Source: Hexactinellida sp. DTS-2022 (lineage: Eukaryota; Porifera; Hexactinellida). Taken from it: DNA of 64,000 bases. Both the position numbers and the translations under genes were made by a program. A model generated the notes under the pieces. That model did not search any database and was not told the origin of the DNA. It saw only the letters and a list, made by a program, of their open reading frames with translations. Positions 1 to 64,000 of this stretch are shown piece by piece. How positions within the stretch are numbered: position 1 is the first letter of the stretch; every line of letters starts with the position of its first letter. The stretch is from assembly GCA_028753945.1 (NCBI GenBank), contig JAPNXP010000006.1, positions 248,001 to 312,000 on the forward strand, written 5' to 3'.

Positions 1-2
1 AC

Positions 3-1206
3 TATACTTATCTGGATACAATCGGTAGACCGCTTTTGGAAATTACAAAACATAATTTGGTAGAAAACCATATTGAGGATTTCACAATCAGTTATTCTTT
101 CAATTCCATCATGTTACTACAGGAGCCATTGTTGTTGTTTACAGCTTTCTTCTTAATGTTTGTTGTTGTTATTATTGTTGTCAGGCTAGACTTCTCAATA
201 ATAGAGGTATGTTTATATTTTCACACTTATTATGTTACTATTAAATGCCTGAGGTATTAATTTGTCAAACTATTGTAGGTTAAAAAATTTTAACTGCCCG
301 AAAATTTACAATTATAATTACAGAGAACTCTCGTTATAACGAAGTGCTTGGGACCTGTAAATCCCTTCGTTATATCCGGATATTCGTTATAAGCGGATAA
401 TAATTAATGCATTTAAATGCTCTGGGGGAAAATATCCATTTCGTTATAACCGGAGTTTTAGTAATGTAATAAGATAGAAGGATTTCCGGACCATTGAACG
501 ACTTCGTTATAACAGGAGTTGACTGTATGTATGTTTATAACAAACTATATATAGGATCAAGATGCTTTGGTTAAAATGCATTTAAAAGCTGCAAGGGAAG
601 AATTCTGTGGTTTAATTGAGAAAAAACTTAGTTTGGTAAAGAAAATAGTAACAGTTGTTGACAAATATAAAACAAACAAAGATAAGGCAGCTTTTAAGAG
701 CGCCAAGAACCAAATCGAAGTTGAACGTAAACAGATAAACACTAGAATAACACAAATAGAGAAGGAAAATAAATTCACATCTGAAGTTACTAATAAGGTT
801 TGTTTGTTTGTTATTTTGTTTGTTAGTTTGTTATTTATTTATTTATTTGGTTTGTTATTTGGTTTATTAGTTTGTTATTTGGTTTATTAGTTTGTTTGTT
901 TGTTTATCTATATATTTATTTATATACTATTTATTTGTTTATATATTATGTTTATATATATATATACGTGCTTATATATACAACACCTATTATATGCCCA
1001 CATAAGTTAGTATAACATTATGACACCTCTAGATGGCAGAAGTGTCCCAGAAGGACACACTACTCAAACAGAACTTGGAACAGACAATATCTCTCTACGA
1101 CAAGCCACCATCCAGGAGCGGAACTGTTATAGCACAGGAGGACAAACTTGGAAAGGAGAGAGAGGAGCTAATCAATCAGATTAGAATGTTGCTCTCAGTT
1201 CTATAA
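3..1206 (+). CDS. RPN1: Ribophorin I (oligosaccharyltransferase subunit 1), 3' part
   Basis: Ribophorin I is the OST1 subunit of the ER oligosaccharyltransferase that N-glycosylates nascent proteins. Only the C-terminal part is in the window: exons <3-206, 555-797 and 1033-1206 join in phase 0. Exon 1 carries YLDTIGRP, HIEDF, LLQEPLLL and a transmembrane helix ending VRLDFS, all diagnostic of ribophorin I as I remember the family. Exons 2 and 3 encode the cytosolic helical, lysine- and glutamate-rich tail, ending in a TAA whose last base begins an AATAAA. Intron 1 holds a family A element and intron 2 a TTTG microsatellite. The 5' exons lie off the left edge. Identification is confident; exon 3 rests on splice sites and an open frame rather than on recognisable conservation. 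Confidence 0.9.
321..525. repeat. TA-MITE family A, complete copy
   Basis: It lies in ribophorin I intron 1. It contains several copies of the family A motif CGTTATAACGAAG in both orientations, a GGTCCCAAGCAC-type core read on the opposite strand, and an end GAGTTGACTG followed by TA. Confidence 0.8.
798..960. repeat. TTTG/TTTA microsatellite
   Basis: Imperfect (GTTT)n begins at the splice donor of ribophorin I exon 2, where the donor itself reads GTTTGTTTG, and grades into TTTA and TATA repeats. Confidence 0.9.
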
Positions 1207-1338
1207 ATAAAACTGTCTATGCTCTATAAATAGAACATAGAATTGTCGTAGATTGGATTGGTGAATAGGAATGTAGTGTTTATTAGTTAATTTGATCGTA
1301 AAATAAATAATTTGCTACAAATCTTAACCTTTGTACTA

Positions 1339-1498
1339 CAGTAGAACCTCGTTAGTACGAATGTTAAATGCGTTCGCCTTATCCGGAATTTGTATTAATC
1401 AATATAATTTGTATTGAAAGGCTTTGAAGGGGATTGAAATTGTGGTCGTCTTAACCGTGTTCCTACTAACGAGGTTCTATTAACGAGAGTCTATATTG
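1339..1498. repeat. TA-MITE family C
   Basis: Begins CAGTAGAACCTCGTTAGTAC. The internal motif GCCTTATCCGGAAT and the core GGCTTTGAAGGGG are typical of the family. The 3' end is slightly degenerate (CTATATTGTA). Confidence 0.8.
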
Positions 1499-1593
1499 TA
1501 CCTTGAAATAAGATATTTATTATAACTTCATTCATCAATTTCATACCCATTAGTAACTAACAATTCAATAGTTATTTTAGGAGACAGTATACG

Positions 1594-1843
1594 AGTTTAA
1601 TATTGTGTTGCAATAAGATACAATAAAGGGGGAATAAACAAAATAATTATTACAAATATGAGAATATTTGAAGACCATAATTGACATTCCAAGATACAAC
1701 AACTAATTCAATTCATTGCTAAGAGTTACTCCTTGCGGAAATTCAAACTTTCCTATTCCCTCTCCTCTTCTTCCAATGTTGCAAATTATATTTCCATCTT
1801 TAGAGAACACTTTCACGTTATTAGCACCATAATCGCTAATAAA
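1594..1843 (-). pseudogene. Truncated inverted copy of the NHL gene 3' end
   Basis: Read on the minus strand, this stretch closely matches the last ~70 codons and the 3' UTR of the gene at 8074-9238 (about 9055-9300). It includes the frame for ISDYGANNVKVFSKDG and the downstream GTATCTTATTGCAACAC. A single T is missing in the run before the TTAGTTGTTG stretch, which creates an in-frame TAG. There is no 5' part and no start. It is therefore a broken partial duplication, in opposite orientation to its source about 7 kb away. The high similarity, UTR included, suggests a recent event. Confidence 0.85.
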
Positions 1844-2432
1844 TTGTTAGTCACAGAGAAGTTACAATAGGGCTTATAAATCGAAAATCGGGTTGGCTTC
1901 AATTTTGTTCCTCCAATTTGTAATCATTTTACAAAAACTTTCAAAGCTCTAGAAATACTCATGTGTAGTTTATTCAATGCACTGCAACATTAAATGTACA
2001 TAGTGACGATGTTGTTTACAGGAATGCAGTAAATGGATGATGCTCACATACTCCTGACTAGATTCGATTGTTTGTGCTAGCCTTCTGTAAACTGATATTA
2101 TATTAAACTCTAGAAAATAAACTAAAGAACCATTTTATTCTCTATAAGGAGTTATTAACATCAATAGCTAGACTAGTGGACTTCTACGTTGAAAAATAAT
2201 GACACTTCAGATTTTATAAAAGTATGATCCTTTTTGATAATTTGAGCTAATATGGGATATTGCGATATAACAATGTCCAACTAAATACTGCTAATATAAG
2301 TCACTAAACAGACCATAATAAATTTGATTAGTACCTTGCGGACAACAAAGTGATATCCATTTTTGCTGTGTACAAAAATGTCTTCCTTCTTTCTGTACAC
2401 AAGCTTTGTATTTTTCACATATTATATTAGAA

Positions 2433-2495
2433 GTCTCTCTATTGTGAACATAATTATTGTTCCCTTGAATGTTCAGAATAGAACCTGACTGTATG
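2433..2495. repeat. TA-MITE family F, half copy
   Basis: Only the AGTCTCTCTATT...AACCTGACTGTA end is present. Confidence 0.7.
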
Positions 2496-2534
2496 TATGA
2501 CATATTAAATTGTATATTGTCAAAAATACTAGTA

Positions 2535-2708
2535 CAGTAGATGTCGGATATAAGCACACCGGTTATAAGAACATATCGGATATAAGCACACTGTGTTGGA
2601 AAACGTTTGCCATCTACCCTGTATTATTTATGTCGGTTATAAGAACATGCCGATTATAAGCACCTTAAGTGCAGTTCCCGACGATGTGCTTATAACCGGC
2701 ATCCACTG
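2535..2708. repeat. TA-MITE family E
   Basis: CAGTAGATGTCGG...CCGGCATCCACTG flanked by TA. The motif GGTTATAAGAACAT or its GGATATAAGCACA variant occurs at least six times. Confidence 0.85.
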
Positions 2709-3282
2709 TATATCCTAGTGTTTGTTCTACTATGCTATGACTCGTGTTCAATGTAATTCGCTTAAGATACTATATTTAGAATAGGCACTACATTATGTAT
2801 ATAGTATATCTATATAAACCTATTTGTAGTATAGAATATACACTATTGAATTGTACACTATTTTCTACCATAATAAGAGAAGATATTTTCAAATTTGATA
2901 CCGTGTGCTATTCATCAGGTTAGTTAGTATGACTAATTATTTTTTAGTATGTGCTCTTTAATGAATTATTCTCTTTCATTAGGAAACATAATTTGATTAA
3001 ACTATTTTCTACGAAGCATTTTACACACATTATAATCTCTCTCGCACATCGATACTATCACAGGTGAGTAATTCATTATGATGCACTTTTATCGGGCAGT
3101 TGTTGCCTTTTAATTTCCTCTTAATTGCTTGTTTTATTTAAGTTCGTATATTTAATTTATTTGTTGCTGGGATACTAAATGATCTAAAAATTTTAATTAA
3201 ACTAGCACACACTTTTTTTGAGAACGCGCACACTAGTAATGCTCCCATTTTAGGCCATGTAAAATAAACTACTCATAAATAT

Positions 3283-3400: not shown

Positions 3401-3611
3401 TTCGCCATGTCATCATCACCATTAAGGTGTTAAATTATTTCAGAAAGGTGTTTCAGAAGGCAACGACCCTTAGTGAGTTGGAAGTTGTTTCCATTTAGCT
3501 CACTTAATTTTAGAGATATTCAAGTTTCAGTTGAATATAATAATTGATGACTCAGCATTTTTTATGTGCGTGTTGGGTAATCACCCAACACCAACCAACC
3601 CATTTGTATTA

Positions 3612-4097
3612 CAGTAGAACCTCGTTAGTACGAACACGGTTAATACGAATTTCCGGATAAGACGAACAAATAGTTCCACAAAATCAGGTCCCTACAATGG
3701 CTATTAAATGGGTATTACAGTACACCCTCGCTAATCCGAACAGAGTTGTTCCGATTCAAAAAATCTTCTGTTCCGATTAGTGAATTCGTTCGGATTAGTG
3801 AAGTAATGCATTTTCTATGGGCATCTGTAAATGAGAATCTCGATAATCCGAACCAAACTTGTACAAACCTTGTTAATCCGCACTAAACATCTAGTGTACT
3901 CCATAAAATACTTGCCTGAGACTTATCTTTTATACTCCATTGCAATTTACGATTTTTTCCCACATTTATTAGAAGAATATTTTGGTTTCTCCTGTTCGGA
4001 TTAGCGAGGGTGTACTGTACTCCGGTTAATACGAACTCTGGATAAAGCGAACAAATTTTTACCGTCCGTTGGTGTTCGTATTAACGAGGTTCTACTG
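3612..4097. repeat. TA-MITE family B interrupted by a family I element
   Basis: The outer B ends are CAGTAGAACCTCGTTAGTAC and GAGGTTCTACTG. The B sequence GGGTATTACTCCGG is split at its TA by the element at 3718-4017; removing that element and one TA restores B exactly. Confidence 0.9.
3718..4017. mobile_element. TA-MITE family I, complete, nested in family B
   Basis: 300 bp, CAGTACACCCTCGCTAATCC...GAGGGTGTACTG. TA is duplicated at 3716-3717 and 4018-4019. The internal motif GTTCGGATTAGTGAA / CTAATCCGAAC recurs about six times. Confidence 0.92.
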
Positions 4098-4334
4098 TAT
4101 ATAATTCACCAAATTGTAAAAACACATTTTTTTTAACGATGTCATCATCACCTCAAGGTGTCAGGACCCATTTGTAGAGGTGTTACGTGGCATAAGGATC
4201 AATTGATAAATTGGAAGTTTGTTTCTATCTTGTATCATCTCTGAGATTAATGCCATTTAGCAAATTAGTCTAAATAATTATTCAAATTATGAATAATTTA
4301 ACACCATTATTATGTACAGCAAAATAAATTAAGT

Positions 4335-4778: not shown

Positions 4779-4827
4779 AGTTCTAACGTGTTCATTTGAA
4801 ATTATAAGTCTTAACTTATTAGATTTT

Positions 4828-11440: not shown

Positions 11441-11488
11441 TCTAAAAATAGAATTGTTGTTAATTCTACTAAATTAAGGAACAAAATA

Positions 11489-11661: not shown

Positions 11662-11822
11662 TAATTATAGAGAAGGATTTGTATACAATATATTGAGAAT
11701 CCCTTATTATATATTCCCCAGGGGTCTAAATTGTACCCATTTGGGGGTTTGGAAACCACAAATGGCATAGAAAATGCTCTCAATTGTATATGTTAATATT
11801 AGGGACTCAAATTATGCAACTA

Positions 11823-11951
11823 CAGTATAAGTCGGTTATAATAAGTACGTACTAACTGAGTTTACCCTACATAGAAATACATACTGATTTATAAAATTGG
11901 TTAATAAAATTAGTAAGTACTAACCCAGGTACTTATGACCGAGTTCTACTG
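11823..11951. repeat. TA-MITE family P
   Basis: CAGTATAAGTCGGTTATAAT...GACCGAGTTCTACTG with internal GTACGTACTAAC and GTACTAACC motifs. Confidence 0.7.
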
Positions 11952-12252
11952 TACACGAAAATAGTTTATGATAGCAAATAACTTAGTTCTTATTGGAACT
12001 GTTTAATAAGAACTTACTTTAGTAATTTTGAATACTAACAGATGATATTAACGTCATAAAATTAATTAATTTTATTAAAACTTATCTTTATAAGTATAAA
12101 CAGGTATCATATTTATGTTAGATATTACCTCAATTGTTAAGCCTATTTGGAATTTGATCCTTATTATACTGACTAATATATTTTATAATTTCTCCTATTT
12201 ATATTTAGCATAGTCAAATGAACTTTTTATTATAAAAGTTCACTTACAAGTA

Positions 12253-12755: not shown

Positions 12756-15700
12756 TTACAACAGACTTTCTCTCTTCCAATTTCCAGGATTTTCAATTAA
12801 ATATTCATTTCCATCCCCAGGTAATAGGTCACTAGCAATTAATCCTGTCATTGACGTTTGTCTAGTTACTAATCTTAGTCTATCAGTTAGTAGTATATTC
12901 TCTTGTTGTAAATTCTTAACTCTCTGCTCATACCTATCTGCCAAATCGGTATCTAGGGAGAGACCACTGTCCCCTAATTCTACCCCATAATCACATCTTG
13001 AATTTGGGTCTTTAATAATTAGAAAAATCACAGGAATGAGAAGTAGATTTGTTGTAGCGGTTACTGCAACCAAAATGCAGATTATCACTAAACTGAACCT
13101 CAAATCAGCCTACAATAATACAGATAATAAATCTTATAAATAGGATGCTTATATATCGGCTAACACCTTTGCAATATATAAACCGACTCAAAATTTTTGG
13201 CGTCAAAAAATATCTTTTTTTTTCTATAAAAATAATCACAATAATATTATAAAGGTTTATATAAGTAGAAACCGTCTATAGCTATATTTCTTCTGCTTAA
13301 CATTCAACTTTATATTATGAACAAGCCCTATGGTCCCAATTTAACAACTTACATAGGGTTTGTATTAAGTTGAGTTCGCTTATTATAAAGTCTCTCTATT
13401 ATGAACACAATTATGGTCCCTTGAATGTTCTTATTAAAATAACCTGACTGTATCAAAATAATTGATATTAGGCGAACACTACTATCCTGAATTTGTTATT
13501 AGAAGAAACTGAGTTTTATATAAGTCATTTAATTTTCGACTAACACCTTACTATTATAGGAGAGAACAAACAACAACAATAACAACAACAACAAACAAAC
13601 AACAAACACTAAATACTTACCTGTTGTATTATGAACTGGTGACATATAATCCCAATAACTCCTAACACACCAACTGTATACAGACTAATTCCAACCCAAA
13701 TATTCTCCCTATGTCTCTTGTACTTCAGTGACCTTGTATCAAATGCTATAACCATAGCAATCACCATTATAACAACTTTTGAAATAATCACAATACCAAT
13801 TACGATACGTTGATCAACAGTATTAGGAGCTCTACAGTTGTATTCGATAGAACTGACTTTAAGTCCGTCTATTACTTTATCAATCTCATCAATATGTTGT
13901 CTATAAATAGAATATAATTAAAACCCTTCGTTTGTACGAACACGGTTAATACGAATTGCTGTCTAGAAGATAAATAAATAGAATAAATAGAAAATCTATA
14001 AATAGAAATATAGTTAACCAAGGAATTATTCAGGAGTACTTGTTAGTTAGTTAGTTAGTTAGTTAGTTAAGTTACAGTATAACCTCGTTAGTACGAACAC
14101 GGTTAATACGAATTTCCGGATAAGACGAACAAACAGTACTACAAAATCAAGTCCCTACAATGGCTATTCAATGGGTATTACTCCGGTTAATCAAACTCCG
14201 GGTAAAGCGAACACATTTTTACCGTCCGTTGGTGTTCGTATTAACGAGTTTCTACTGTAGTTGACTAACTAACTAACAAGTTTTCTTCTTTCTTACTTTA
14301 TTTCCATGCAGAGAATTGACTAAAAAACCCGGTTTCAACTGTACCTGAAAATACTATTTTCTAATACACTTTTCAAGTTACCTTCTTGAGTTTGACATTA
14401 TTTATTGATCCTAATTTATCCGATTATTGTTGTTAGATTTAAAACTTACATGGATCTTGACTGTGGAATAGCTGTCCATAAAATTAAGAATAAAACATCT
14501 ATTAATAGGAATCCAGCCAGTATTAGTAACAAGTGTATTTGTTCAAGTTTAAACTTGTATTTTCTTTTGGCCACATTCTTAAGTTTGTACTCTTTAATAT
14601 AAAAAGCGTATATCATTTTAAGGAAAAGAGGATAAAATGTTATAGTAAACCCAATAGTTAGAATCCAGTTTATAAGACTGCAAGTTATATCAAAAGCTAT
14701 CAAACTGTCTGTTAGGTATTCTAAGTTTGGAATCTGAAGGAGTATTGTACCAAAGTACAGGATAATGGAACCTAGAAATTAGAGTCAATTATACGTGTAT
14801 TCTAATGAATAAAATATATACAGTCGACTCCGCTTATTAGAGCCACCGGTTAATAGTTTTCTCCGCTTAATGGGGTCAAATTTTCACAGGATTTATAGGA
14901 CGGAATGACAGTTTGGCTTAAAATATTTTCGGTTAATATATTTCTCCGCTTAATCGAGTCAAAGTAACCTGGTCCCGAGGTGACTCTATTAAGTGGAGTC
15001 GACTGAATTTCTGAATATTTAGCGCTTAAAATGCAAATAATTTCCATTCGACTGAAAATAAAGGAAATGTTTGACCTGGCACTTAATTAAATGAGAAATT
15101 CTATTTTCTAAATTTATATTTTTTGTTTTTTCTTGAATAATGAAATTACGGTGGATACCGGTTATAAGAACATCGTCATGAACTGCATATAATGTCTTAT
15201 ATCCGACATAAATTATACAGGGTATATGGCAACCGTTTTCCAATATAATGTTCTTATAACCGGTATCTACTGATTGTTGACTATGAAAGAGCAAATACTA
15301 CATACAGTCGACTCCGCTTAATTGGGTCACATCGGGACCAGGTCATTTTAACCCGATTTAGCGGAGAAACCGATTAACCGAAAATATTTTAAGCTAAACT
15401 GTAATTCCGTCCCATAAATCCGGTGAAATTTTGACCCGATTAAGCGGAGAAACCGATTAACCGGTATCCCGATTAAGCGGAGTCTACTGTACAAACATAA
15501 ACAACAACAAACCTATTAAACTAGTTAATGTTAGCAAGGGAGTATTTGAGCTGATTGCACCATGTTTCCAACGTATAAGTACTATAACAATATACACAAT
15601 AGAAACACCTATACCAATAACTGATAAACAAACAAACACAACAAACTGTGCTAGCGATATAAAACTTCTTTGTTCTTGAGAACCATCATTAGGAACCATG

Positions 15701-18700
15701 TCTCCTGGCCAATTTATTCCACTTATAGTTATACCACTGTCGTTACCAGAACTATTTCCAATGGGTATTCTTATGCCATTCAAGAACTGGGATATGGTAA
15801 CGTTAGTATATCTATCCCCTGATGAAGTGAAATTAATGATACCAGTTGTACCTATAAATAGAATCAAATTAATATATGAAAATGAAATTATTTTTGTACG
15901 ATTTACAGTAGAATCTCGTTAGTACGAACACGGTTAATACGAATTCTGGATACGACAAACAAACAGTTCCACCAAATCAGGTCCCTACAATGGTTATTCA
16001 ATGGGTATTACTCCGGTTAATATGAATTCCGGATAAAGCGAACACATTTTTACCGTCCGTTTGTGATCGTATTAACGAGGTTCTACTGTATATATTATAT
16101 TGTAATGAAATTATTTTGTACGATTTATAGTAGAACCTCGTTAGTAAGAACACCAGGGGACCGTCAAAATTATTTCGCCTTATCCGGAATTCATATTAAC
16201 CAACATCATTTGTATTGAAAAGGCTTTGAAGTGGACTGAAATTATATTCGTATTAACCGTCTTCCTACTAACGAGGTTATACTGTACAGTAATTATTTAC
16301 AAGAATCTGCCAACTAATATAAAACAATGGCACAGTCATTTTTTAACAATTTTGTGTGTTCATATTGAGGCGTATATATATAATTATGCCTTGTATATAG
16401 GGGTCTCAATCCCGGGATCCCGAATCCCGGGATCCCGGGATTCCGGTCCATTTTAGCCCGGGATTAGACTTTCCAATCCCTGGATCCAGATATATTATGA
16501 GTATAGCAATGATTGTGAAGCTTGATGTGAATATTATCTTCTCGCATGACATATACTGTCAGGTCTGCTTATTATGAACAAGATTTCGTCTGATAATATG
16601 GAGATTTCTTATTATGAACAAACCCTACAGTCCCAATTTAACAACTTACATAGGGGTTGTATTAAGTTGAGTTCGCTTATTATAAAGTCTCTCTATTATG
16701 AACTCAATTTATGGCCCCTTGAATGTTCATAATAAAAGAACCTGACTGTAATTATATTCTTTAATTCATTTTTATTGCTTACATTTCTCGGTAATCAATT
16801 ATTCGTTACTTGTTCAATTACGTGTGGCTTTGTCATTAGGTGAATTTTTGATAACATGATGCTTTGTTTATTAACAACAATCTTGAACCATTTCATATTA
16901 ATATAAATTTAAATTCCTATCAGGAATAATCAGAAAAATCTTAATTAAAATATTATTATTACTATACTACGATCTTATGCTCTATTTATTATGTAATGGA
17001 GTCATCAATCAATCAATACACTATTACATTAATTCAACATATTCGCATGATTGGTCAAGTGTCAATAAATTATTTGATCAATCCCGGGATCCCGGGATCC
17101 CGGGATTGAACATGATTCCAATCCCGGAATCCCGGGATTGGAAAAAGGCTCCGGGATTGAGACCCCTACTTGTATAACTATTGTATTTACCTTGAAAACT
17201 TATATTTGCCATTATATCTCTCAATCTGTTAGCTATTTCGGTTTGTTGATAATTAAAGTCATCCAAACATAGATTATTTGTATCACACGTGCTACCATAA
17301 ATTGTATCATATTTCTGAATAGCAGATACCATTGCACTAAATGTATCAAAAATAAGATCATTATCCCCAATTTCTGTGGGAAATAAAGTGTGAAATTCCG
17401 TGTAATTAGGCCCAAGGAGAGTAGGAATTGTTTGGTTATTTGTTACCAAATTTTGATTGAAGAATATTGAGTATTCCAATTGGTCACTAATGTCACTCGG
17501 CACACAGTCAATGTCAGCTGTTTCGTTCCAGAAGTTAACAGGCAACCTATAAATAGCTCGCTTTAATACATAGAATTGTTAATACAGTCAGGTCTGCTTA
17601 TTGTGGACAATTTTTTGTCTGCTTAATATGAAGGTTTTTATTATGAACAAGCCCTATGGTCCCAATTTAACAACTTACATAGGGTTTGTATTATGTTGAG
17701 TTCGCTTATTATAAAGTCTCTATTATGAAAACAATTTTGGTCCCTTGAATCTTCAAATAGAATAACCTGACTGTAGTTTATTGGTAAATTTTATTTCCAC
17801 ATTTAGATTATAATTTAGTATACAAATTTGTGCATAAATTTAAGAAAAATATTTGTCTACAAATTTTCTTTTCAGATTTGAGCAAAATGTTTCTGCTAGC
17901 GTCTTGATATAATTTACTAAATTTGTTTACGAGCTTGTTTACCAACTCACCATCCATCTAATAGCCATACAATCTGTACATTACTCTGTTGTTTATATAC
18001 TTCACACAAAATAGGTACAGCGAAGTTTGGATAAAATAAACCAATTAAAATACTGTATTTTTGTTCCAAAATATCTTCTATAATCGGTCCAATATTACTC
18101 AATCCGAATATTAGAAATAGAGACGAATCAATATTTTCTCTATCCAACAAAGTCCGTAATTCATGAATGCTAGAAGTAAATAGGGACACGCTTTCTACAA
18201 TAATTGCTACCCGAGTCCATCCTTGTGATTTTATGAAATTAACTCTTGCATTAATTAATGTTAATTCAGTTGGGTAAAGTCGAAAAAAATTCGGATAAAT
18301 ATATTTATTTGAAAACTGTGGAGAAGTGACGAAATATGAAATTGCGATTATATTTGTTATTGTTAGGTCCAATGCTATTGGGTCTGCTGCTAGAGAACAA
18401 GCCGGTCCTATTTGAGATATATATAAGTAAACAACAACAACAACAATATAGCTCATATACAATAAGTATTATAATACAATAGACTCCGCTTAATTTGGTC
18501 CGCTTAATTGGGTCACCCAAATATTGCAAACAAATTGTAATTACATCTGTAAATCCTGTGAAATGTGGCCTAATTAACCGGTGGCTCTATTAAGCGGAGT
18601 CTACTGTAATAACAAAAATGCCAAAAGTCCAAAGATTTGAACAAATAATTCCTAGTGCCATAATTTTACGTTAAAATGAATATTTTGTACAGTAAAACTC

Positions 18701-19715
18701 GGTTATAACATACTTTTATTAACCAAGTTTAGAAATCAGTATGTATATCTATGTAGCTTAAACTCGGTTAGTACGTACACTCGGATAATACGTACTTATT
18801 CCATTCCCGAGGGGGTACGTTATAACCGAGTTCTACTGTATACAATAATTATATCTATGATGATATATAATTTTTGGCGCCTAGAACAATTTTGGCGTCT
18901 TATTGGAACCATGGGTGTCAGATATAATCATAGTTCCATATTACTCTATAAACTTACCGATAATGAATGGAAATGCGTTTGGTTGCTGTAGCATTTCAAT
19001 ATAAGCTCGGTTGCCTTCCCTTGCAGTGCAATTTGTATCGAATGACGTATACCTCAATTCGTACCTAGTAATTAGCGTTATATGTATATTGCATAGTGTA
19101 TAAGGTATAGTGAATCCCCGTTATAAGCAAGTGACCTTATACAATGATCTTATATCAAGGAATTATCTAGGAGCGCGAGACGCTCCTTTTGGAGTATGAT
19201 TTTTGGAAAATTTGAATTTAGGAGCGTGAAAATTTGGAATCCTCTCCTATACAGTAACATAAATTTATGATTTAGGCGTATGAAAATTGGATTAGACCAG
19301 GATTAGGAGCGTATTTATAAATAGTTGTATATATTATAATACACTAGAACTTCGTATTATCCGGAATTCGTATTAACCGGAGTCACTTACATGCATTTGT
19401 ATAGGCTAGGGGAATTAAACTTTGTATTCCTTAACCGATATTTCGCCTTATCCGTGTAAGTATTATAACGAGAGTCTACTGTACATATTAACTCGTATTA
19501 TATAACTTATACTCCTACCTTTGTCCAAAATCTGAGGAATCGAACAGTTGTATCCCATAATCCAACAAATCAGTTATATTGTATAACCCATTGGGATGTG
19601 ATATCTGTGTGGAATTGAAAGGGTAGAAAAAAGCAAAGCGAATTATTTTTTTCTGAGCAAATGTAGTTGTTATAAGCAAGCTGCTTATTAACAGGGTAAT
19701 AACTGAAATATGCAT
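12756..19715 (-). CDS. GABA-B-type class C G-protein-coupled receptor
   Basis: Eight exons join in consistent phase: 19519-19715, 18958-19064, 17951-18407, 17191-17546, 15513-15851, 14450-14771, 13621-13900, 12756-13109. They give 803 residues. Residues 1-20 are a signal peptide. A Venus-flytrap ligand domain follows (GPACSLAADP, SPQFSNK, YPNFFRLYP, QGWTRVAII, GLFYPNFA, CEVYK), close to GABA-B receptors and keeping the GLFY tyrosine. Seven helices start near residues 440, 478, 508, 562, 622, 660 and 688. The tail has a coiled coil at ~739-768 (RVKNLQQENILLTDRLRL), as in dimerising GABA-B subunits. It probably signals through Gi/o at the plasma membrane; the ligand is unknown. Every intron except the last holds at least one MITE, and the last holds half of one. 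Family assignment is confident; orthology to subunit 1 or 2 is not. Confidence 0.92.
13319..13450. repeat. TA-MITE family F, partial (GABA-B intron 7)
   Basis: Starts inside the element at GAACAAGCCCTATGGTCCC and ends AACCTGACTGTA. Confidence 0.8.
14075..14257. repeat. TA-MITE family B (GABA-B intron 6)
   Basis: Complete, CAGTATAACCTCGTTAGTAC...GAGTTTCTACTG. It is preceded by (GTTA)n. A B-end fragment lies at 13922-13965. Confidence 0.88.
14821..15004. repeat. TA-MITE family G (GABA-B intron 5, copy 1)
   Basis: CAGTCGACTCCGCTTATTAG...AAGTGGAGTCGACTG with CCGCTTAAT / ATTAAGCGGAG motifs. Confidence 0.88.
15150..15272. repeat. TA-MITE family E (GABA-B intron 5)
   Basis: Short copy, GGTGGATACCGGTTATAAGA...ACCGGTATCTACTG. 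Confidence 0.8.
15305..15489. repeat. TA-MITE family G (GABA-B intron 5, copy 2)
   Basis: Opposite orientation to copy 1. The motif CCGATTAAGCGGAG recurs. It ends GAGTCTACTGTA, 24 bp from exon 5. Confidence 0.88.
15906..16088. repeat. TA-MITE family B (GABA-B intron 4)
   Basis: CAGTAGAATCTCGTTAGTAC...GAGGTTCTACTG, complete. Confidence 0.88.
16128..16284. repeat. TA-MITE family C (GABA-B intron 4)
   Basis: AGTAGAACCTCGTTAGTAAG...GAGGTTATACTG, 40 bp after the B element. Confidence 0.85.
16398..17168. mobile_element. hAT-like non-autonomous element M
   Basis: 771 bp with perfect 18-bp inverted ends TAGGGGTCTCAATCCCGG. A perfect 8-bp duplication CTTGTATA lies at 16390-16397 and 17169-17176. 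Clusters of CCCGGGATCCCGGGATT lie inside both ends. A family F MITE sits within (16556-16748). It ends 22 bp from GABA-B exon 4. No transposase frame is present. Confidence 0.93.
16556..16748. repeat. TA-MITE family F nested in element M
   Basis: Complete, starting CTGTCAGGTCTGCTTATTAT and ending GAACCTGACTG. Confidence 0.85.
17585..17773. repeat. TA-MITE family F (GABA-B intron 3)
   Basis: CAGTCAGGTCTGCTTATTGT...AACCTGACTG flanked by TA; nearly half of the 404-nt intron. Confidence 0.9.
18475..18606. repeat. TA-MITE family G, short (GABA-B intron 2)
   Basis: Begins CAATAGACTCCGCTTAAT and ends AAGCGGAGTCTACTG. Confidence 0.8.
18690..18838. repeat. TA-MITE family P (GABA-B intron 2)
   Basis: CAGTAAAACTCGGTTATAAC...ACCGAGTTCTACTG with internal GTTAGTACGTACAC. 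Confidence 0.82.
19157..19330. repeat. Family K repeat (GABA-B intron 1)
   Basis: Begins CAAGGAATTATCTAGGAGCG, carries the palindrome GAGCGCGAGACGCTCC and ends AGGAGCGTATTTATAAATAG. Confidence 0.75.
19340..19481. repeat. TA-MITE family D, 5' eroded (GABA-B intron 1)
   Basis: TCCGGAATTCGTATTAACCG core, GGCTAGGGGAATTAAAC and end GAGAGTCTACTG. Confidence 0.8.
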
Positions 19716-23092: not shown

Positions 23093-23837
23093 TTTTGGTT
23101 AGTTTATTAGTTTAAGTTATTAGTCCGTCTATTTATACTAACTCGAAATGCATATTAGTTAGATATTGAATTGAAACTTTAGTTTGTATTTGGACAGAAT
23201 TCATTGAAAAGTTTAATGTAAGATAAGATTTTTGGAGTAAGTTTTTTTTACAAACTTATGTTGGTAAGGAGTAAACAATAACTGTTTGTTTGTCAACAAA
23301 TACTATTAAGGTTTAGAGTTTAAATGTCTGATATACTTAGCACCTTAAAAATGTGCGCCGAAACAATGGTTTTATATTTCAATAAGTTATAAATAATTAT
23401 TGCTCAACGATTTCCCATGTTATCCAATTACAGTAGACTCTTGTTAATAGGAATATGGATAAGGAAATATCGGTTAAGGATTACAAGGTTAATTCCCCTA
23501 GTCTATACAAATGCATGCAAGTGACTCCGGTTATTACGAATTCCGGATAATACGAACATATTAAGACGGTCCCCTGGTGTTCCTATTAACAGAGTCTACT
23601 GTATTCCCCAAATGGATAAATTAAAGATTATTCCGCTTATAATGAAGTAAACTAAGGGTCCCTTGTATTTCGTTATAACAAGAATTACTTACATAGTTCA
23701 ATCAATTAATTTCATGCAATTAAGTGGAAACTTACAAACAAACAAACTTAATAAATACAGCTATAAAAACAAGTGTCATTTGCTCAGTAGTAATATTTAA
23801 AAGTAAACAACAACAATAACAATAATAATAATAATAA
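23093..23837. other. Intergenic region between plexin (3' end) and CALM/AP180 (5' end)
   Basis: 745 bp holding one D element (23431-23601) and a fragment of family A (about 23605-23695). It must carry both the CALM/AP180 promoter and the plexin 3' UTR. Confidence 0.6.
23431..23601. repeat. TA-MITE family D
   Basis: CAGTAGACTCTTGTTAATAG...AACAGAGTCTACTG, complete. Confidence 0.88.
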
Positions 23838-44800: not shown

Positions 44801-47800
44801 TTTCCATAATTAGAAATGGACAGCCGTAAATATCAAAAGTTATTCCTATTATGTTATAAACCTCCTACTGATATGTTAATAGTTTGTAATCATTCCTAAG
44901 CATTGATTGAATATATGCTAACTAGTTTGAATATTGATAATAAAGACACCTGTATTGTAATACATATTTTATATTGTGTAGGATTAAATTTAAAATACAG
45001 TCAGGTTCTTTTATTATGAACATTCAAGGACCAATTATTGTGTTTATAATAGAGAGTTTATAATAACTTACTAATAAGCGAACTCAACTTAATACAAACC
45101 ATTTGTAAGTTGTTAAATTGGGACCATAGAGCTTGTTTATAATAATAAAGTTTCATATTAAGCAGACGAAATCTTGTTCACAATAAGCAGACCTGACTGT
45201 AACTAACTAACATAACCAATTATGTCATATTACTCCAAGACCTAATACAGTAAAACCTTTAGAAAGTGAACACCCTGGGGACCAGCCAAAATTGTTCACT
45301 TTTCATGATTTATCATAATGTGTGTCTAAAGCAATGGGGAAAATTTGGGACCGAGAAAAAGTGATATTATTTTGGAGTTGTTCATTTCTTGGAGGTTTTC
45401 ACTTTTGGAGGTTTTACTGACTGTACTATGTAAACGGTTGGTAATTACTAATTACTCACTTCTATTTTTATGACTGTACATATCCTAGCTTGACATTATA
45501 AAGTATAACTGGATTGTAATCAGAAATTAAGTATATGGTAAGATTAAATTTAAATAATTATAGTATTATATTAGTTTGGGTTTAGTGGGTTGCCATTAAT
45601 TTTATTATTTTTACTGATTATACAAATATCCGTATATTGTACTGATTATAATCTACATAATTGACCAGGCTAGTATTAATTTAATCCTACGCATTATAAG
45701 ATATTCTTGTCCATTTTATTATATTTTGGATGTAAGAAAGGTGAAAGATTTACTTGTTAAATGATTAGATCATTATTCGTATTTGGACGGAATTTGCATC
45801 TAATTGTGGTTAAATTTTATTTCTGGGTTAGTAATGACGTGGCAGATTGACAAACAAACAAATAAACAAACAACAAACAAACAAACAGGCAAACAAACAA
45901 ACAAACAAACACACAAACAAACAAACAAACAAACAAACAAACTAACACACAAACAAACAAACAAACAAATAGATAAACAAAACACAAATACTCACCTTAT
46001 ACACTTGTCCAGTACTGATACCAATAAATACAATATCCAATCCATTTCTATTAACAACTGCTAATCCTCTTATCCGTTCACCTTCCGTGTTATAATATAT
46101 TGAATTTGTTGTCAGAGCTGTTGACACTTCCAAACCGTTTCTCAAATATCCGCCCAAACTGCAAACACCTCCAACCTATGGACAATATAATTAACTTGCA
46201 TTCCATTAAACCTATATGGTTGTTTGGATAATCTACAGAGAACTCCCATTAAACCTACAGTAGAACGAATTTCCCGAATTTCCGGATAATACGAACAAAC
46301 AGTTCCACAAAATCAGGTCCCTACAATGGTTATTCAATGGGTATTACTCCGGATAAAGCGAACTCCGGATAAAGCAAACAAATTTTTACCGTCAGTTGGT
46401 GTTCGTATTAACGAGGTTCTACTGTATTTACAGTGAATTCCGTTATAACCAAGTCGGATGAATGAAATAACCGCTTATAATGAAATGGAGATTTCCCCCC
46501 AGAGCACTAAATGCTTTAATTATTATCTGCTTATAACGAATATCCGATATAACGAAGGGATTTACAGGTCCCAAGCACTTCGTTATAACGAGAGTTCACT
46601 GTATAAGCATTTTTATTTTCACGCCCCTTATAACGGAGTGATCTCTACTATTTTATATTACATTCCATTATTATACATGGTTATTACTTGTTAGGTAATA
46701 ATTTTAAGAGCTACTTGTACTCCTTTATCTACATTCCAGTTAGCTAATTTGAATGTTAAGATATTGCAGTGAACGCCCATTTATCAGAACTCAAATTACT
46801 TGGAACTTTTGTTCAGGGGTTTATCTAGGATTTTCTTGGCAGGAACTTTGTTTATAGAAGTTAATTTTTATGGCACCTAAAGGTGTCAGCTATAATACAT
46901 AATCGGTATAATTCTATTAATCATCGGCTACGTATATGGCCTATAACCTATAAGGTTGTTAGAACAAAGCATTGAGAGTTTACTTGCCTAATCTGGTTGT
47001 TATAATACCGGAATTATTCGAATAGTAGCCTAGGCGATTATTGTTTTTTAGGCCATTTTCTGACCAATAATTTTTGTGACTTTTCGAGAATATCACATGT
47101 TGATACAATTTATTTAGTATAGTCAGTTGATAATCGTATTGCGACTAATATTAGATAAAGAGATTTACTCAGGGTACAGGTAGTAAATTCAGGCAATTTT
47201 CCAATTTTCTAAATTTTCTAATTTGGGGGCTATTTAGAATATATACGGTACTTACTATTTCCAGTTTCTGACAAGGGACTTGTCCTTTCCTTTCGAATCC
47301 TGCTTTTTCTCCGTCTTCCCCTCTCACGCAGCGATAGTACTTCTCATTCATGAGTCGATTTATTTCAGACAAGTTAAACACACAAATGCTATCCGTATAG
47401 CCTAGAGAAAAGTGTAGTAATACCTCGATTGTAGAATTGTAGCAAACAAACAAACAAACAAACAAACAAATATACATACAAATTAACAAACAAACAAACA
47501 AACAAATATACAAACAAACAAACAAACAAACAAACAAACAAACAAACAAACAAACAAATATACATACAAATTAACAAGCACACAAATTAACAAACAAATA
47601 TACATACAAATTAACAAACAAACAGGCGAACAGATAAACAAATTAATACATTAATAAAACAAAACGAACAAACATTGCTAATAAACAAATATCGCGTGAT
47701 GTAACAGTCGAAACCGGTCGAAACCGGTTTTTTCTAACCAATTCTTTGCAGGGAAATAAATTCAGAAAAATCCGATTGAAAATGCAACAAATAGGAATTT

Positions 47801-50800
47801 TTTACAAATTTAGAATAAATAGTTAGTTAGAAAAAGCCGATTATTAGAAAAAACCGGTTTCAACTGTACATATACATAATAATATTTAATTACAGTGGAT
47901 GCCGGTTATAAGAACATCGTCGGGAACTGCACTTAATGTGCTTATAACCGGCATGTTCTTATAACCGACATAAATTATACAGGGTATATGGCAACCATTT
48001 TCCAACATAGTGTTCTTATATCCGGTATGTTCTTATAACCGGTGTGCTTATATCCGACATCTACTGTACTATATAGTGCTATAACATACCAGTTGAATGT
48101 GCCACTATAAGTCTGTCGTTTATAAGCTGAGCATGTGTTGCGTACATCTCATTGTTCTCATTTGGGAGACAGGAGAGAATCAATTCGTATTTTGTAGAGA
48201 AATCTCCGCGATTGAAGGTGTCATTTAAACACAACTAGAAATATATTTTTAGAAATAATTTATATACATTATAAATATGAATAACTTATATGTTTGGATA
48301 AATACAGTCACTTATATTATGAGCATTAAAGGGACCAAAATTGTGTTCATAACAGAGATACTTTATAATAAGCGAACTCAACTTAATACAAACCCTATGT
48401 AAGTTGTTAAATTGGGACCATAGGGCTTGTTTATAATAAAAAAATTCATATTAAGCAGAAGAAATATAGCTCACAATAAGCAGACCTGACTGTATTATAT
48501 TATAATCTCCTCAATATTATTATCAGCTATAGATAATAACTATCTAAACAATGGAATTAAATAACTAAATAATTAATTTATCATTATACAAATATTTTAG
48601 CCATTCAACCCTAGCTTATATTGATTGTGTTTCCTTATAAGGTTTTGATTGCATTTCCATTAAATTTAGTGAATTTATTCATTTAAATATCTACATTTTT
48701 ACATGTATTATTAACCATGTGTTATACCACTAAAAGCCACTATTGTACATTAGTGAGAAAACAGATTTTGTTCGATTTATAGGCATTGTCAATATGTTTG
48801 TTTCATTGGGTTAGTGCTATTTTTAATTAGGCTTGATCATTAGTATTTAAATTTTGGCAATTTTATTGATTTAATTGTAGTGTGTTTGTTTGTTCATTTA
48901 TCTGTTAGTTTGCTAGTTTGTTAGTTTGATTGTTTATTTGTTTGTTTGTTTGTTTGTTCATTTATTTGTTTGTTTGCTAGTTTGTTAGTTTGATTGTTTA
49001 TTTGTTTGTTTCTTCAGTTGTTTGTTTGTTTATTTGTTGTTGTTGTTTTCGGAAATTAACTCACCCGAACAATTCTGACTTCTCTAACTGTCAAATAATC
49101 TTTTTGTTGATTCACCAAAAAATAAATAAATCCATCTCTCTCAAATACTGCCACATATTCTCGATTCAATTTTGACAATTCTCGAAACCTTACTGGTTCG
49201 ATCAGCTGTTCCAGAAAATTCTCTCCAAATTGGAATAAGTCAACTTCGGAATTTCGATCCAAAAACTCGGTTCCAATTGGAACTGACTGGGTTATGTAAA
49301 GTTCGATTGAATTTGCAGTGCTTTGTGAACCAATTAAATTGATGGGTTCTCTTAATGGAGGATTAATGAGATAAGTTAAATTCCTGATATGTTCCAATGT
49401 AAATTTGTTATAAATGTTCACATTCCCTAACCCATCATATGTTGTTAGGAACGAATTGTATGTTGATATTGAAAGTATTTGCATTGACCCAGTGATATCT
49501 ATAAATAGAACAAAAATATGTAATACTTTCGTACTAATTAAATATCGAAAATAATTAGCATTAATAATAATTAATTTTAATTGATTTTAAATTTTGGCAA
49601 AAGAACAGTTAACAAATAAGTTACAAGTTTTAAATTATTCCATCAAAATGTATATATTTAATTAATTCAGGTATTTGGTCATAAATTACTTGCAAATAGG
49701 ATGTTTAATTGTTAGCAACTTTCACATCTTATTGCTAACTATTTATACAGCTGAGATGTCCCGTGGTACACTTATTAAATCACATTCCATAATACCAAAT
49801 GGGTTGCTTATTAAGTTTGTTACAGAGTTGGTAAGAAAAGAGGATGACAATCTGAATTATGAATATTTTATTATTAAAACTCGATTATTGTGTATTTGTT
49901 TGTTTGTTTGGTGGATTGTATTAAAGTGATAGGGGAAAACGCGTTTATAATTGAGACTTCCAAATGTTATAATAGGTAAACAAGTATGCTGAACACGAAT
50001 TTCGATTTGATAAATTTATAATATGAATATTTATTGTTGTTGTTTACAAAATCAGTAAACAATTAATGAAATTTGAAATGAACAGGGGTATAATAGGTAT
50101 ATTAAAAAGCTGATAGAATTTGTCTAAAATATGTTAAGTTGAAATAGCTAATAATAATAATAATACAGAAATTTTTATGAAAAAATCAATGAAAAAATCG
50201 TACTATAATACAGTAGAACCTCGTTAGTACGAACACAGTTAATATGAAATTCCGGTTAATAAGAACATTATTTCAGTCCCCTTCAAAGCCTTTTCAATAC
50301 AAATGACTCCGGTTACTACGAATTCCGGATAAGGCGAACACATTTTGACGGTCCCATGGTATTCGTAATAACTAGGTCGATTATCCTAGTAACAGAGATC
50401 GCAAATGGAATGGAAACTAATTGTAATTCCTATAAACCTATTCTACTGATTGCAATAATACTTCATAAATTCCTTTAAATATAGGAGTTCCAAATAACTC
50501 AGATAAAGAAATAAAATATGCAATTTGAAATTTTTATCTCACAGTTGAAAGTCTATTATAAGTTATAACACAACTATTTTCATGTTAATAAAACCACACT
50601 TTATAAAGGAATTCAAATTCAAAATGTTAATAAAACCACACTTTATAAAGGAATTCAAATTCAAATTTATAAGTCATAAATGTGGTTATGTTCACAAGTT
50701 AATATTCAAGGAATTATATAAGCAAATGTCGCCAACAAATAATGATTTAGCCGAGTCCATTCGCGACCTTTCCTATAATATTTCATAATATTCACTTTCA

Positions 50801-54544: not shown

Positions 54545-54841
54545 CAGCGATTCCCTTACTTTTTCAACCGTGGACCCCCTATAGTAAATATTAGACATTC
54601 TGTGGACCCCTCCCATTGACCGTAATACAGTCGAAATCGGATTATTTTGTCCAATTCTTTTCATGGATAATTCGACAAAATAATCCGATAGATAAACAAA
54701 TAAACCCTGTAGGATATCCATGCAAAATGGTATATACAGTATATCATAATTTTCCTCGAATATTAGGACAAAATAGTCCGATAAAACAAAATAATCCGAT
54801 TTCGACTGTACATCCTTTGGACCCCAGGTTGGGAACCACTG
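54545..54841. mobile_element. hAT-like element W interrupted by MITE S
   Basis: Inverted ends CAGCGATTCCC / GGGAACCACTG with inner TTTCAACCGTGGACCCCC. 8-bp duplication GCCTAGAC/GCCTAGAG (54537-54544, 54842-54849; one mismatch). Ends of the CAGnGnTTCCCAACC type are typical of animal hAT elements. Confidence 0.88.
54628..54808. mobile_element. TA-MITE family S nested in element W
   Basis: 181 bp, CAGTCGAAATCGGATTATTT...AATCCGATTTCGACTG. TA at 54626-54627 and 54809-54810. Internal motif AAAATAATCCGAT recurs. Confidence 0.9.
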
Positions 54842-58524: not shown

Positions 58525-58559
58525 TTTGATAATAGTTTGTAGAAACAAAGTAATGGCGA

Positions 58560-59062: not shown

Positions 59063-59250
59063 AGGTTATAACGAACTCCGCTTAAAACAAACTCCGCTTA
59101 TAACAAACTCCGGTTATAACAAAATTCCGTTTATGATCAACTCCGGTTACAACGAAATTCAACTTATAATGAACTCTTTTGAGATCGAACTCCGCTTATA
59201 ACGAAATGAAACTACGGTCCCGAGCACTTCGTTATAGCGGGAGTTGACTG
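59063..59250. repeat. Tandem array of the family A-like motif
   Basis: Eight to nine direct units of 16-17 bp (GCTTATAACGAACTCC variants) are closed on the right by an inverted GTTATAGCGGGAGTTGACTG end. Confidence 0.88.
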
Positions 59251-59760: not shown

Positions 59761-59874
59761 TTAACTGTGTTACTCAGAAATGAGAGTAGTTATTGAATAG
59801 AACTATAAATTAAGATTAAACTGAAAGAAAGAAACTAACTAACAAACAAACTCAAATAAATTTCAAAAACACAA

Positions 59875-61122: not shown

Positions 61123-61467
61123 GCTTAATTGCTGCTATTTAATGTGTTTATTTGCTTGAGTCAATCAATAGTTACTAATTAATAAAATCTGTAAATCTGT
61201 AACTCATGTTTGCTCATCCGTAAAAACCATTTAACCATTAAGGAATCTAAAGCCATTTAATCTCACCTCTTTGGTATTTGATTTATAAGAATTTTAATAT
61301 TAATTATTAATAGCTTTATAATTACAGTTTTTTTTTCAGATTTGTTCGTGTTTGGTGCTACATATCCTAAAATATTAATTATTTCATAAAAACAACTTTA
61401 TTTGTTGTTATTTGATATTATTTAACCGCAATGTATATACAGGTGTTGTTAACTACAAGTATGAACA

Positions 61468-62415: not shown

Positions 62416-62588
62416 TATTTCTATATTTAGTAACATTTATTAATTGTCAAATAATTATTCAATAATTAAGTGTTTATCCTGTGCTTATTACCTAAGTATT
62501 ATTTGAGTATTAATTTCTAAGTTTAGGACCTGTTAGTTCTAAATATAAACTACTGCAATTCCATTCATTAGACTATTATATATACGTA

Positions 62589-62773
62589 CAGTAGAACCTC
62601 GTTAGTACGAACACGGTTAGTACGAATTTCTGGATAAGACCAACAAACAGTTCCACAAAATCAGGTCCCTACAATGGCTATTCAAATGGTACGAACTCCG
62701 GATAATACGAACTCTGGATAAAGCGAACAAATTTTTACCGTCCGTTGGTGTTCGTATTAACGAGGTTCTACTG
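62589..62773. repeat. TA-MITE family B
   Basis: CAGTAGAACCTCGTTAGTAC...ACGAGGTTCTACTG, complete. Confidence 0.9.
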
Positions 62774-62926
62774 TATATTCCATATTCCAATATATAATAA
62801 GTTAGAAATATAAGCAAGAAAATAAGTCTTAGTGCAAAATGTGAAAATGCCCGTATCATGGAACGAATAGCTGTAAATAATTGATAGAATAAAGATAACT
62901 GTTATTATTTTAGTTTGTGCAGTAAA

Positions 62927-63050
62927 ACTTACAATACTTTAACTCTGAACTTATTGCGTATTTAGATTAGTGGCTGTATTGTGGTTGTTGTTTCAATAAA
63001 ATATCTAATTTCTGCAATTCCATCAAATTCCTTTGAACCACTAATTTAAA
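62927..63050. repeat. Inverted duplication, arm 2
   Basis: Counterpart of 59630-59760 in opposite orientation, about 3.2 kb away. Confidence 0.9.
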
Positions 63051-63067
63051 ATATATTTTAGTTTGTA

Positions 63068-63217
63068 CAGTATGTTCTGTTAATAGGAACACCAGGGGAC
63101 CGTCGAAATATGTTCGTATTAACCGGAGTCACTTGCATGCATTTGTATAGACTAGGGGAATTAAACCTTGTGCTCCTTAACCGATATTCCCTTTTTCGTG
63201 TCCCTATTAACAGAGTG
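63068..63217. repeat. TA-MITE family D
   Basis: CAGTATGTTCTGTTAATAGG...CCTATTAACAGAGTGA. Confidence 0.82.
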
Positions 63218-63393
63218 AAATTCTTTTTGAAATTCTAAATATAGATTACAATTATATTATTACATACTAACGTATTCTGGTTTATATTCAATTAACTACT
63301 TGAATTTCTAATTTCATTATTTCGCTTGGAAATGGAGGTGTTAAATATGAATAATCACACTCTTTGTATAACCTATAATATTATTTTGTTAAT

Positions 63394-63423
63394 AATTACC
63401 CATATTAGCGTTATATAATGTCA
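63394..63423. repeat. 30-bp direct repeat carrying the start-codon context, copy 1
   Basis: AATTACCCATATTAGCG followed by TTATATAATGTCA. Copy 2 at 63626-63655 differs at one base and contains the IARS1 ATG (63650). A family B MITE lies between. Confidence 0.93.
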
Positions 63424-63427
63424 TATA

Positions 63428-63624
63428 CAGTAGAACCGAGTTTTAATACGAATACCAACGGACGGTCAAATTTGTTCGCTTTATCCAGAGTTCGTATTAA
63501 CCGGAGTAATACCCATTGAATAGCCATTGTAGGGACCTGATTTTGTGGAATTGTTTGTTCGTCTTATCCGGAAATTCGTATTACAAATGGCTGTATAATT
63601 ATATAAGCTAACGAGGTTCTACTA
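63428..63624. repeat. TA-MITE family B between duplicated start contexts
   Basis: CAGTAGAACCGAGTTTTAAT...AACGAGGTTCTACTATA, reverse orientation. The segment before the right end (CAAATGGCTGTATAATTA) resembles a K tail. Confidence 0.85.
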
Positions 63625-63649
63625 TAATTACCCATACTAGCGTTATATA

Positions 63650-63870
63650 ATGTCAGACAATGGATTGAAACCAGTTCAGTCAAATATAAACTTTCCAAAT
63701 GAAGAAGAGAATATTCTCAAATTCTGGAGGAAAATTAATGTTTTTCAGCAGCAACTAAATCTGTCTAAGGATCGACCGAAATATACTTTCTATGACGGAC
63801 CACCGTTTGCCACTGGTTTGCCACATTACGGACACATTCTAGCTGGAACCATAAAGGATGTCGTCACTAG
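63650..63870 (+). CDS. IARS1: Isoleucyl-tRNA synthetase, cytosolic, first exon
   Basis: 73 full codons up to a phase-2 donor (ACTAG/GTTAGT at 63870). The frame shows [27 protein letters not shown] and [13 protein letters not shown], the N-terminal Rossmann-fold part of class I isoleucyl-tRNA synthetase. HYGH (59-62) is the ATP-binding HIGH signature. The enzyme charges tRNA-Ile with isoleucine and in animals joins the cytosolic multisynthetase complex. The rest of this long gene (usually ~1200 residues) lies beyond the right edge. The upstream 30-bp duplication contains a second ATG in the same local context, which could act as an upstream start if transcribed. The call is confident despite the short exon. 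Confidence 0.93.
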
Positions 63871-63924
63871 GTTAGTTCCTATTATATCTCTATTGGTATC
63901 TCTATTGGTATATGTTGTTAGTTA

Positions 63925-64000
63925 GTTGTTGTTTGTTTGTTTGGTAGGTTGTTTGTTGTTTGTTTATTTGTTTATTTGTTTGTTTGATTGTTTGTTTGAT
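63925..64000. repeat. (TTTG)n microsatellite (IARS1 intron 1, to window edge)
   Basis: TTTGTTTG units begin about 55 bp after the exon 1 donor. Confidence 0.85.

Follow-up and report, generated by a model that had tools for sequence, protein, structure and literature searches.

Short TA-flanked elements in the sponge window

The stretch analyzed here, which we call the window, is 64 kb long (positions 248001-312000 of contig 15) and comes from the 112.4-Mb, 18-contig genome of the sponge Hexactinellida sp. DTS-2022. Besides genes matching NHL repeats, ANTH, plexin and ANF receptor, it contains short elements that are flanked by TA, begin with CAGT, end with ACTG and hold repeated copies of a motif of their own; these elements, and their relation to transposons of the pogo/Tigger type, are our subject. 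The window has 173 occurrences of TACAGT and ACTGTA taken together, whereas 50 dinucleotide shuffles average 45. When pairs were counted at spacings of 60-2500 bp, with the TA flanks required by the search pattern, 37 TA-CAGT...ACTG-TA pairs matched at 14 or more of 20 end bases (shuffle mean 0.18, maximum 2), some of them nested or crossed, as with 3716-4019 within 3610-4099. The 173 ends have 111 direct and 129 inverted inner copies of their own 16-mer at up to four mismatches, the corresponding means in 100 shuffles being 6.6 and 6.2, each with a maximum of 13; 99 of the ends have at least one such copy.

We reduced 33 pairings to 25 elements by removing five nested or cross pairings (3610/4019, 3716/4099, 14819/15491, 15904/16286 and 39802/40201) and three doubtful ones (41333/42030, 57073/57641 and 58973/59312). 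The elements that remain are 89-304 bp long when uninterrupted, and 490 bp in the case of a family B copy that holds a nested element. Under a stricter rule (12-mer, at most two mismatches) they contain 48 inner copies, against a shuffle mean of 1.2 and maximum of 4, so that the resemblance of inner motifs to the ends again exceeds that in shuffled sequence; 22 of the 25 have such copies, and 11821-11953, 17583-17775 and 40014-40201 have none by this rule. The richest (2533-2710, 3716-4019, 32855-33032 and 47891-48068) have four inner plus two terminal copies. By eye we recognized the motifs A, B/C, D, E, F, G, H, I, P and Q, together with an additional one, S, at 54626-54810, making about 11 distinguishable families. 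The initial annotation had described more than a dozen families with four to seven motif copies each: that there are several families, each with its own repeated motif, stands, but the number was slightly high, and the copy number is right for the best elements while most have fewer by the strict rule.

Short, bounded by terminal inverted repeats (TIRs) and present in high copy number, these are miniature inverted-repeat transposable elements (MITEs). Duplication of the TA target is indicated both by the excess of TA-flanked pairs over shuffles and by the empty site GGGTATTACTCCGG of the nested family I element, which is seen in the B copies at 14073-14259 and 15904-16090. Genome-wide, 24-base end patterns (which for B and E included a few two-way letters) matched 1035 times for B, 1725 times for E and 309 times for I, with no match to the backward control in any case. 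With the full-length B copy at 62587..62775 as the query, the first pass gave 1974 candidate places, 40 of which were scored; the 39 others among these are 91-94% identical across nearly the whole length, and thus no close recent copy of the queried element was seen.

Table 1. MITEs of the window, with the type of each end (alpha and beta ends are described in the next section).
Family	Position	Strand	Left end	Right end	Remarks
E	2533..2710	+	alpha	beta	spacer TCGTCGGGAACTGC
B	3610..4099	+	alpha	beta	interrupted by nested family I element
I	3716..4019	.	untyped	untyped	inserted in B element with TA duplication
B	14073..14259	+	alpha	untyped by matches	GGAC in spacer
G	15303..15491	-	beta	alpha	
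B	15904..16090	+	alpha	untyped by matches	GGGA/GGAC in spacer
P	18688..18840	+		beta	spacer CCCCTCGGGAATGG
H	21000..21114	+		beta by matches	motif CTAATAGCAA; right end without GGGA
D	23429..23603	+		beta, CCAGGGGACCGTC	
B	32855..33032	-	beta	alpha	
D	35771..35947	-	beta		
E	36552..36695	-	beta	alpha	
I-like	36723..36811	.		typed both ways	89 bp, shortest of the 25
D	39802..39971	-	beta		
G	40014..40201	-	beta, ACCTCGGGACCAG	alpha	zero inner copies by strict rule
F	44996..45201	-	beta, ATTCAAGGACC		motif TTATTATGAAC
A	46429..46603	+		beta, TGCTTGGGACC	
E	47891..48068	-	beta	alpha	4 inner sites
S	54626..54810	-	beta, without GGGA	alpha	motif ATCGGATTATTTTGTC, equal to that of L070
B	62587..62775	+	alpha	beta	

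Two further features of the window may be recorded here. At 59066-59205 lies a 16-bp x 8.6 array (69% matches) of an A-type site, TTATAACGAACTCCGC, which is longer than the normal site grid. The NHL matches come from four ORFs (open reading frames; 8288-9235, 9425-11473, 33418-34884 and 59860-61119), one of which also has a sub-threshold B-box match.

Transposase loci and the two-ended grid of sites

No transposase model matched in the 10 of the window's 26 ORFs (at least 110 aa) that were scanned. The genome as a whole contains 114 matches to DDE_1 and 68 to HTH_Tnp_Tc5, with neither model matching in any of 14 control genomes, and 23 to CENP-B_N, a model that is not specific since two of the 14 controls match it as well; HTH_psq had no match in the genome, and separate searches of viral contigs and of other genome contigs found no related transposase. 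All four proteins that we scanned have both DDE_1 and HTH_Tnp_Tc5, and one of the four also CENP-B_N. In their alignment D187, D295 and D325 are invariant, and we read these as the probable catalytic aspartate triad. The binding domain matches human CENP-B (1hlv) along its length (E 2e-11, or 7e-21 with a profile). The genome thus has the pogo/Tigger features of a DDE_1 transposase and a CENP-B_N plus HTH_Tnp_Tc5 binding domain, along with the same kind of ends as the MITEs, and the pogo/Tigger-like nature proposed for the elements at first is borne out.

We compared 71 loci, which are part of all those present (60 from the DDE_1 and HTH_Tnp_Tc5 searches, merged to 48, plus 18 and 5 more). Many have TA-CAGT ends and family-specific repeated sites, such as CTCCAAATAGTGAACA at L009, CCCGCAAAACGGGGCA at L021/L025, CTCTAAATAACGGACA at L026, ATCGGGTTTTTTTGCC at L032 and CTCAGAATTACGACCA at L042/L046; one transposon group terminates in CAGG instead of CAGT, and at several loci no clear element end was found. 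From these we chose representatives of 18 families by hand, excluding L063 (F6), for which TTGGGAC was rejected as the site in favor of its own array, CTCGAAC. For F4 and F12 the two ends were taken from different copies, and F7, F14, F18, F19 and F20 each rest on one well-defined end.

The two ends of an element differ in a way that is common to families with differing motifs. At the end that we call alpha, direct copies of the site lie at about 10, 26 and 43, i.e. 16-17 bp apart, whereas at the beta end a single copy at 10 is followed, usually after a spacer holding GGGA, by inverted ones at about 47 and 64. We searched 15 alpha and 17 beta ends of autonomous loci with each end's own outermost site as the query, having fixed the offset ranges at 24-27 and 41-44 for alpha (8 of 82 offsets) and at 44-48 and 61-65 for beta (10 of 82). 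Direct copies fell mostly at 25-27 and 42-44, and inverted copies at the opposite end mostly at 45-48 and 61-66: for alpha, 18 of 23 matches lay within the fixed ranges (shuffle mean 0.10) with grid matches in 11 of 15 families, and for beta, 24 of 27 (shuffle mean 0.04) with grid matches in 15 of 17. Matches in the opposite orientation numbered zero for alpha and one for beta. The MITE ends of the window peak alike (direct at 25/26 and 42/43; inverted at 45-47 and 62-63), and the autonomous alpha ends often have further sites near 95-108, 124-141 and 177-198. Where both ends are available, alpha is upstream of the transposase in 12 families; it lies downstream in F16 and F17, and beta lies upstream in F18, the F16 beta end having been assigned from its spacer without a grid match. 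At the level of single loci, L045, L067 and L052 seem to have the two ends exchanged with respect to the direction in which the transposase gene runs, the beta end being weak at L067 and the only one shown by L052.

The spacer provides a second distinction. The 16 bases that follow the first site include GGGA or GGAC in 25 of 30 beta but only 1 of 25 alpha ends of the window, in 16 of 117 untyped ends and in 0 of 1 end typed both ways, compared with 4.5% of random 16-mers. Among the 17 autonomous beta ends, 13 have GGGA in about that position by our count from the spacers (F3, F5, F13 and F17 lack it), and this beta-end box is a specific new candidate signal.

Some loci contain additional repeats. 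At L048:2842-3033 a 22-bp x 8.7 tandem array, each unit of which contains the family's own site CCCAATTAAGCGG, forms a satellite-like amplification of a CENP-B-box-like motif beside a pogo transposase. In the 3' part of the F10 transposon copies at L026, L068 and L079, ahead of each element's own right end, Q-like sites, CTCTAATTGTCC, lie about 16 bp apart, perhaps marking another nested element. A 17-bp minisatellite, GGTAGGCGATTATT, lies near two diverged pogo-type transposase loci (L077, ~738-785; L084, ~2358-2406).

Site spelling, binding domains and transposase partners

Comparison of 19 family motifs shows the least change at positions 2, 3, 12, 15 and 16 and the most at 4, 5, 9-11 and 14. 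Judged from these aligned spellings, the motif is a template of 16 positions, some constant and some variable, of which the TTA-rich 12-mer followed by GAAC in the initial annotation was an incomplete description. Within a family the spelling tends to be shared between the ends. When inner sites were picked by position alone and compared with the outer sites of the opposite ends in 14 families, the own family was strictly best for 27 of 56 inner sites and best or tied for 35; its mean rank was 2.49 of 14, against an expected 7.5, and none of 500 label permutations gave a rank as low.

Motif distances were compared with protein distances by Mantel tests in 14 families having both binding domains and the DDE domain, and in 17 having the second binding domain and DDE, out of 18 for which a site spelling and a second binding domain were at hand. 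In the 14 families, the motif correlates with the second domain (r 0.63, p 0.0001) and with the first (r 0.55, p 0.0001). Given DDE, the right half of the motif still correlates with the second domain (r 0.365, p 0.014 in 14 families; 0.371, p 0.0036 in 17), and the left half correlates with the first domain given the second (0.305, p 0.019). With helix positions for 1hlv taken from PMC4653904, sliding windows gave a high signal for the right half where the second recognition helix begins and a high one for the left half at the first. Exploratory and uncorrected as they are, the sliding windows and partial Mantel tests would fit a two-part reading of the site, and motif divergence appears to follow transposase divergence, in part beyond phylogeny.

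For two of the window's own families, a transposase locus has the motif or a variant of it: motif S is the motif of the transposase locus L070, and L034 and L048 have a variant of G, CGCTTAATCGGG, whereas the AGAGTC form of G is found nowhere twice. What the 71 loci offer for some of the others is scattered single matches (A), MITE-sized neighbors (F, H and I) and a nested insert (E). The E case had at first suggested the transposases of L022, L023, L024, L031, L038 and L060 as partners, through a 3' CAGTAGTAATCGG, but we rejected this assignment: the piece is an insert, about 106 bp long and with family-E-like sites, that lies toward the 3' side of these six copies (in L024, G000:C1 about 11194000-11194105), and other ends are present further out, reading TACAGGTAAACCTCCC in L022, L024 and L038 and decayed in L023 and L031. 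Because six copies of one transposon hold it, the insert has travelled with its host; TA is lacking at its inner flank, and calling it MITE-like is a judgement. I-type sites near the L045, L083 and L085 transposases were likewise tentatively judged to be MITE-sized insertions rather than the ends of these elements. Window families without an assigned transposase may be orphans, may be mobilized by relatives or may have partners outside the 71 loci.

In our leading interpretation, whose account of MITE origin follows in the next section, a single CENP-B-like domain would bind each 16-bp repeat, with the left half read by its first helix-turn-helix and the right half by its second. Together the alpha and beta arrays would assemble an asymmetric synaptic complex ahead of cleavage at TA, and each transposase family would prefer its own spelling, making the families largely separate address systems on one shared scaffold. 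A bolder interpretation, offered tentatively and with a little less than even confidence, is that pogo/Tigger transposons share an ancient asymmetric scaffold, with three direct sites at one end and, at the other, one site plus two inverted ones and a GGGA box independent of family. Only the address would change, in step across at least six copies and both helix-turn-helix domains, giving at least 18 largely orthogonal transposase-address pairs in one genome.

Several observations weigh against the leading interpretation. The grid rule gave no match at four of 15 alpha ends (F5, F8, F9 and F10, where copies do appear near the grid offsets once the other end's site is the query) or at two of 17 beta ends (F16 and F18), and its offset ranges, set from the MITE ends of the window, are not fully blind since some autonomous loci had been glimpsed beforehand. 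Seven of the 56 inner sites ranked their own family below fifth (in F5, F9, F10 (two), F11, F12 and F16, with just one of the seven not at a beta end). The motif also tracks the catalytic domain in the 14 families (r 0.59, p 0.0001), so much of its correlation with the binding domains reflects shared descent, and the left half is not significantly correlated with the first domain given DDE (0.17, p 0.12). The 64 Mantel tests are uncorrected, alignment of the 18 family motifs was done by eye, and reassignment of F12 raised the correlations. The sliding-window signal is high elsewhere too, with one stretch of the first domain tracking the right half (r 0.55). Finally, none of the 71 loci supplied a transposase that could be assigned to families A, B/C, D, E, F, H, I, P and Q, and we set our confidence slightly lower because the I-type and nested E-type pieces weaken the links of those families.

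The strongest competitor, which we nevertheless regard as unlikely, is that motif divergence is phylogenetic signal only, sites and proteins having drifted together without a meaningful change in specificity. The near equality of the DDE correlation with those of the two binding domains is what it would predict, and it tempers the earlier claim that sites and transposases diverged together, a claim that the distances otherwise bear out; against it, the second domain and the right half remain significantly correlated once DDE is accounted for, in a test that at this small n can be too generous. Less probable still is that one or a few transposases of relaxed specificity move all MITE families and that the spellings are drift within elements. 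The many window families without a partner would suit this, and relatives may cross-mobilize some of them, but inner sites tend to share the opposite-end spelling of their own family, which drift would lose, and the binding domains are strongly diverged in alignments.

Origin of the MITEs and relation to known systems

The end types also bear on how the MITEs arose. The 33 pairings comprise 10 alpha/beta, one alpha/alpha, one ambiguous and 21 with an untyped end; discounting two cross pairs (14819/15491, alpha/alpha, and 39802/40201, alpha/beta from two elements), the non-redundant elements with both ends typed are nine alpha plus beta, none alpha plus alpha or beta plus beta, and one ambiguous. 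Such a record makes derivation of the array from a parent transposon the simplest account, as does the finding that transposase-bearing elements of other families have equal or more sites at matching offsets. The MITEs are most likely alpha and beta ends joined, without internal amplification of the motif; for families without a known autonomous copy, this origin rests on the shared grid and is what it would most simply imply. We are largely confident that the elements are non-autonomous and arose by deletion from DNA transposons of the pogo/Tigger type, with a grid of predicted binding sites spelled by family.

The initial annotation had instead proposed that each MITE family multiplied its cognate site internally, here taken as following loss of the transposase gene. 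Several inner copies are indeed present, and tandem arrays of sites exist (the 16 bp x 8.6 array at 59066-59205 and the 22 bp x 8.7 array at L048), but since transposase-bearing elements of other families share the site offsets, often with extra copies near 95-198, this proposal is not supported and we consider it very improbable. The least probable explanation of all is that the repeats are kept for an RNA or DNA hairpin, to which the inverted copies of the beta end could contribute, because the direct repeats of the alpha end cannot pair together (no inverted match within 100 bases at 15 alpha ends) and the spelling correlates with DNA-binding domains.

Tigger and pogo elements end in CAGT or CAGG, like the elements described here, and the ends of human Tigger1 and MER2 also contain spaced repeats, which would suggest that the scaffold extends beyond this genome. 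In Drosophila pogo, Wang, Hartswood and Finnegan reportedly described in 1999 a 12-bp transposase site repeated in the TIR; the likeness lies in a short site for the transposase helix-turn-helix present more than once per end, with binding only predicted in our case, and the difference in the 3-7 sites per end, their different order at the two ends and the many spellings per genome seen here. Arrays of transposase sites with set spacing are also known from the ends of Sleeping Beauty (IR/DR), Tn7 and Mu. The transposases of these systems are different, and here the spelling varies between families while the grid stays constant; Tn7 and Mu have unlike ends, as here, whereas Sleeping Beauty has like pairs of direct sites at both ends in place of a direct array opposite an inverted pair.

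With CENP-B the elements share a homologous DNA-binding domain (1hlv). Against the CENP-B box as given in PMC4585704, 19 autonomous motifs match on average 4.42 of nine positions versus 3.65 for letter-shuffled motifs, with 0 of 2000 shuffles reaching this; none matches the core TTCGnnnnAnnCGGG at all nine fixed positions and the best three match six, so the sites are CENP-B-box-like only. Stowaway and hAT mar MITEs, as far as the listed literature describes them, are likewise short, TIR-bounded and non-autonomous but are not pogo elements, and search listings contained no description of the site grid for Stowaway or hAT-type MITEs. In the available portions of PMC7386202 and PMC7325037, pogo/Tigger elements are treated in terms of TIR length classes and domains, without repeated subterminal sites or an asymmetric grid, and neither "binding site" nor "subterminal" is present in the main text of PMC7325037 as available. 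Titles and opening lines of abstracts returned by full-text literature searches held no description of an asymmetric site grid in pogo elements, and neither did the available text of those two papers, PMC9976928, PMC4585704 or PMC4653904; no paper came up in a text search for end sequences of pogo, Tigger and MER2.

The observation from which we began is thus real, and pogo-type ends carrying CENP-B-box-like sites in arrays largely explain it. There is nothing unusual in the members themselves; what is undescribed, as far as we searched, is the conserved and lopsided grid whose spelling is specific to each family. It raises the question of how a transposase changes its address when at least six sites at two ends must follow. 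It also places the CENP-B box in context, as CENP-B-like transposase domains seem to act on spaced arrays of sites. Because 18 families (14 with all three domains) lie on one fixed grid, the recognition code and the orthogonality of the families are directly testable, and if the bolder interpretation is true, the at least 18 natural transposase-address pairs of this sponge would suffice to read the recognition code of CENP-B-like domains.

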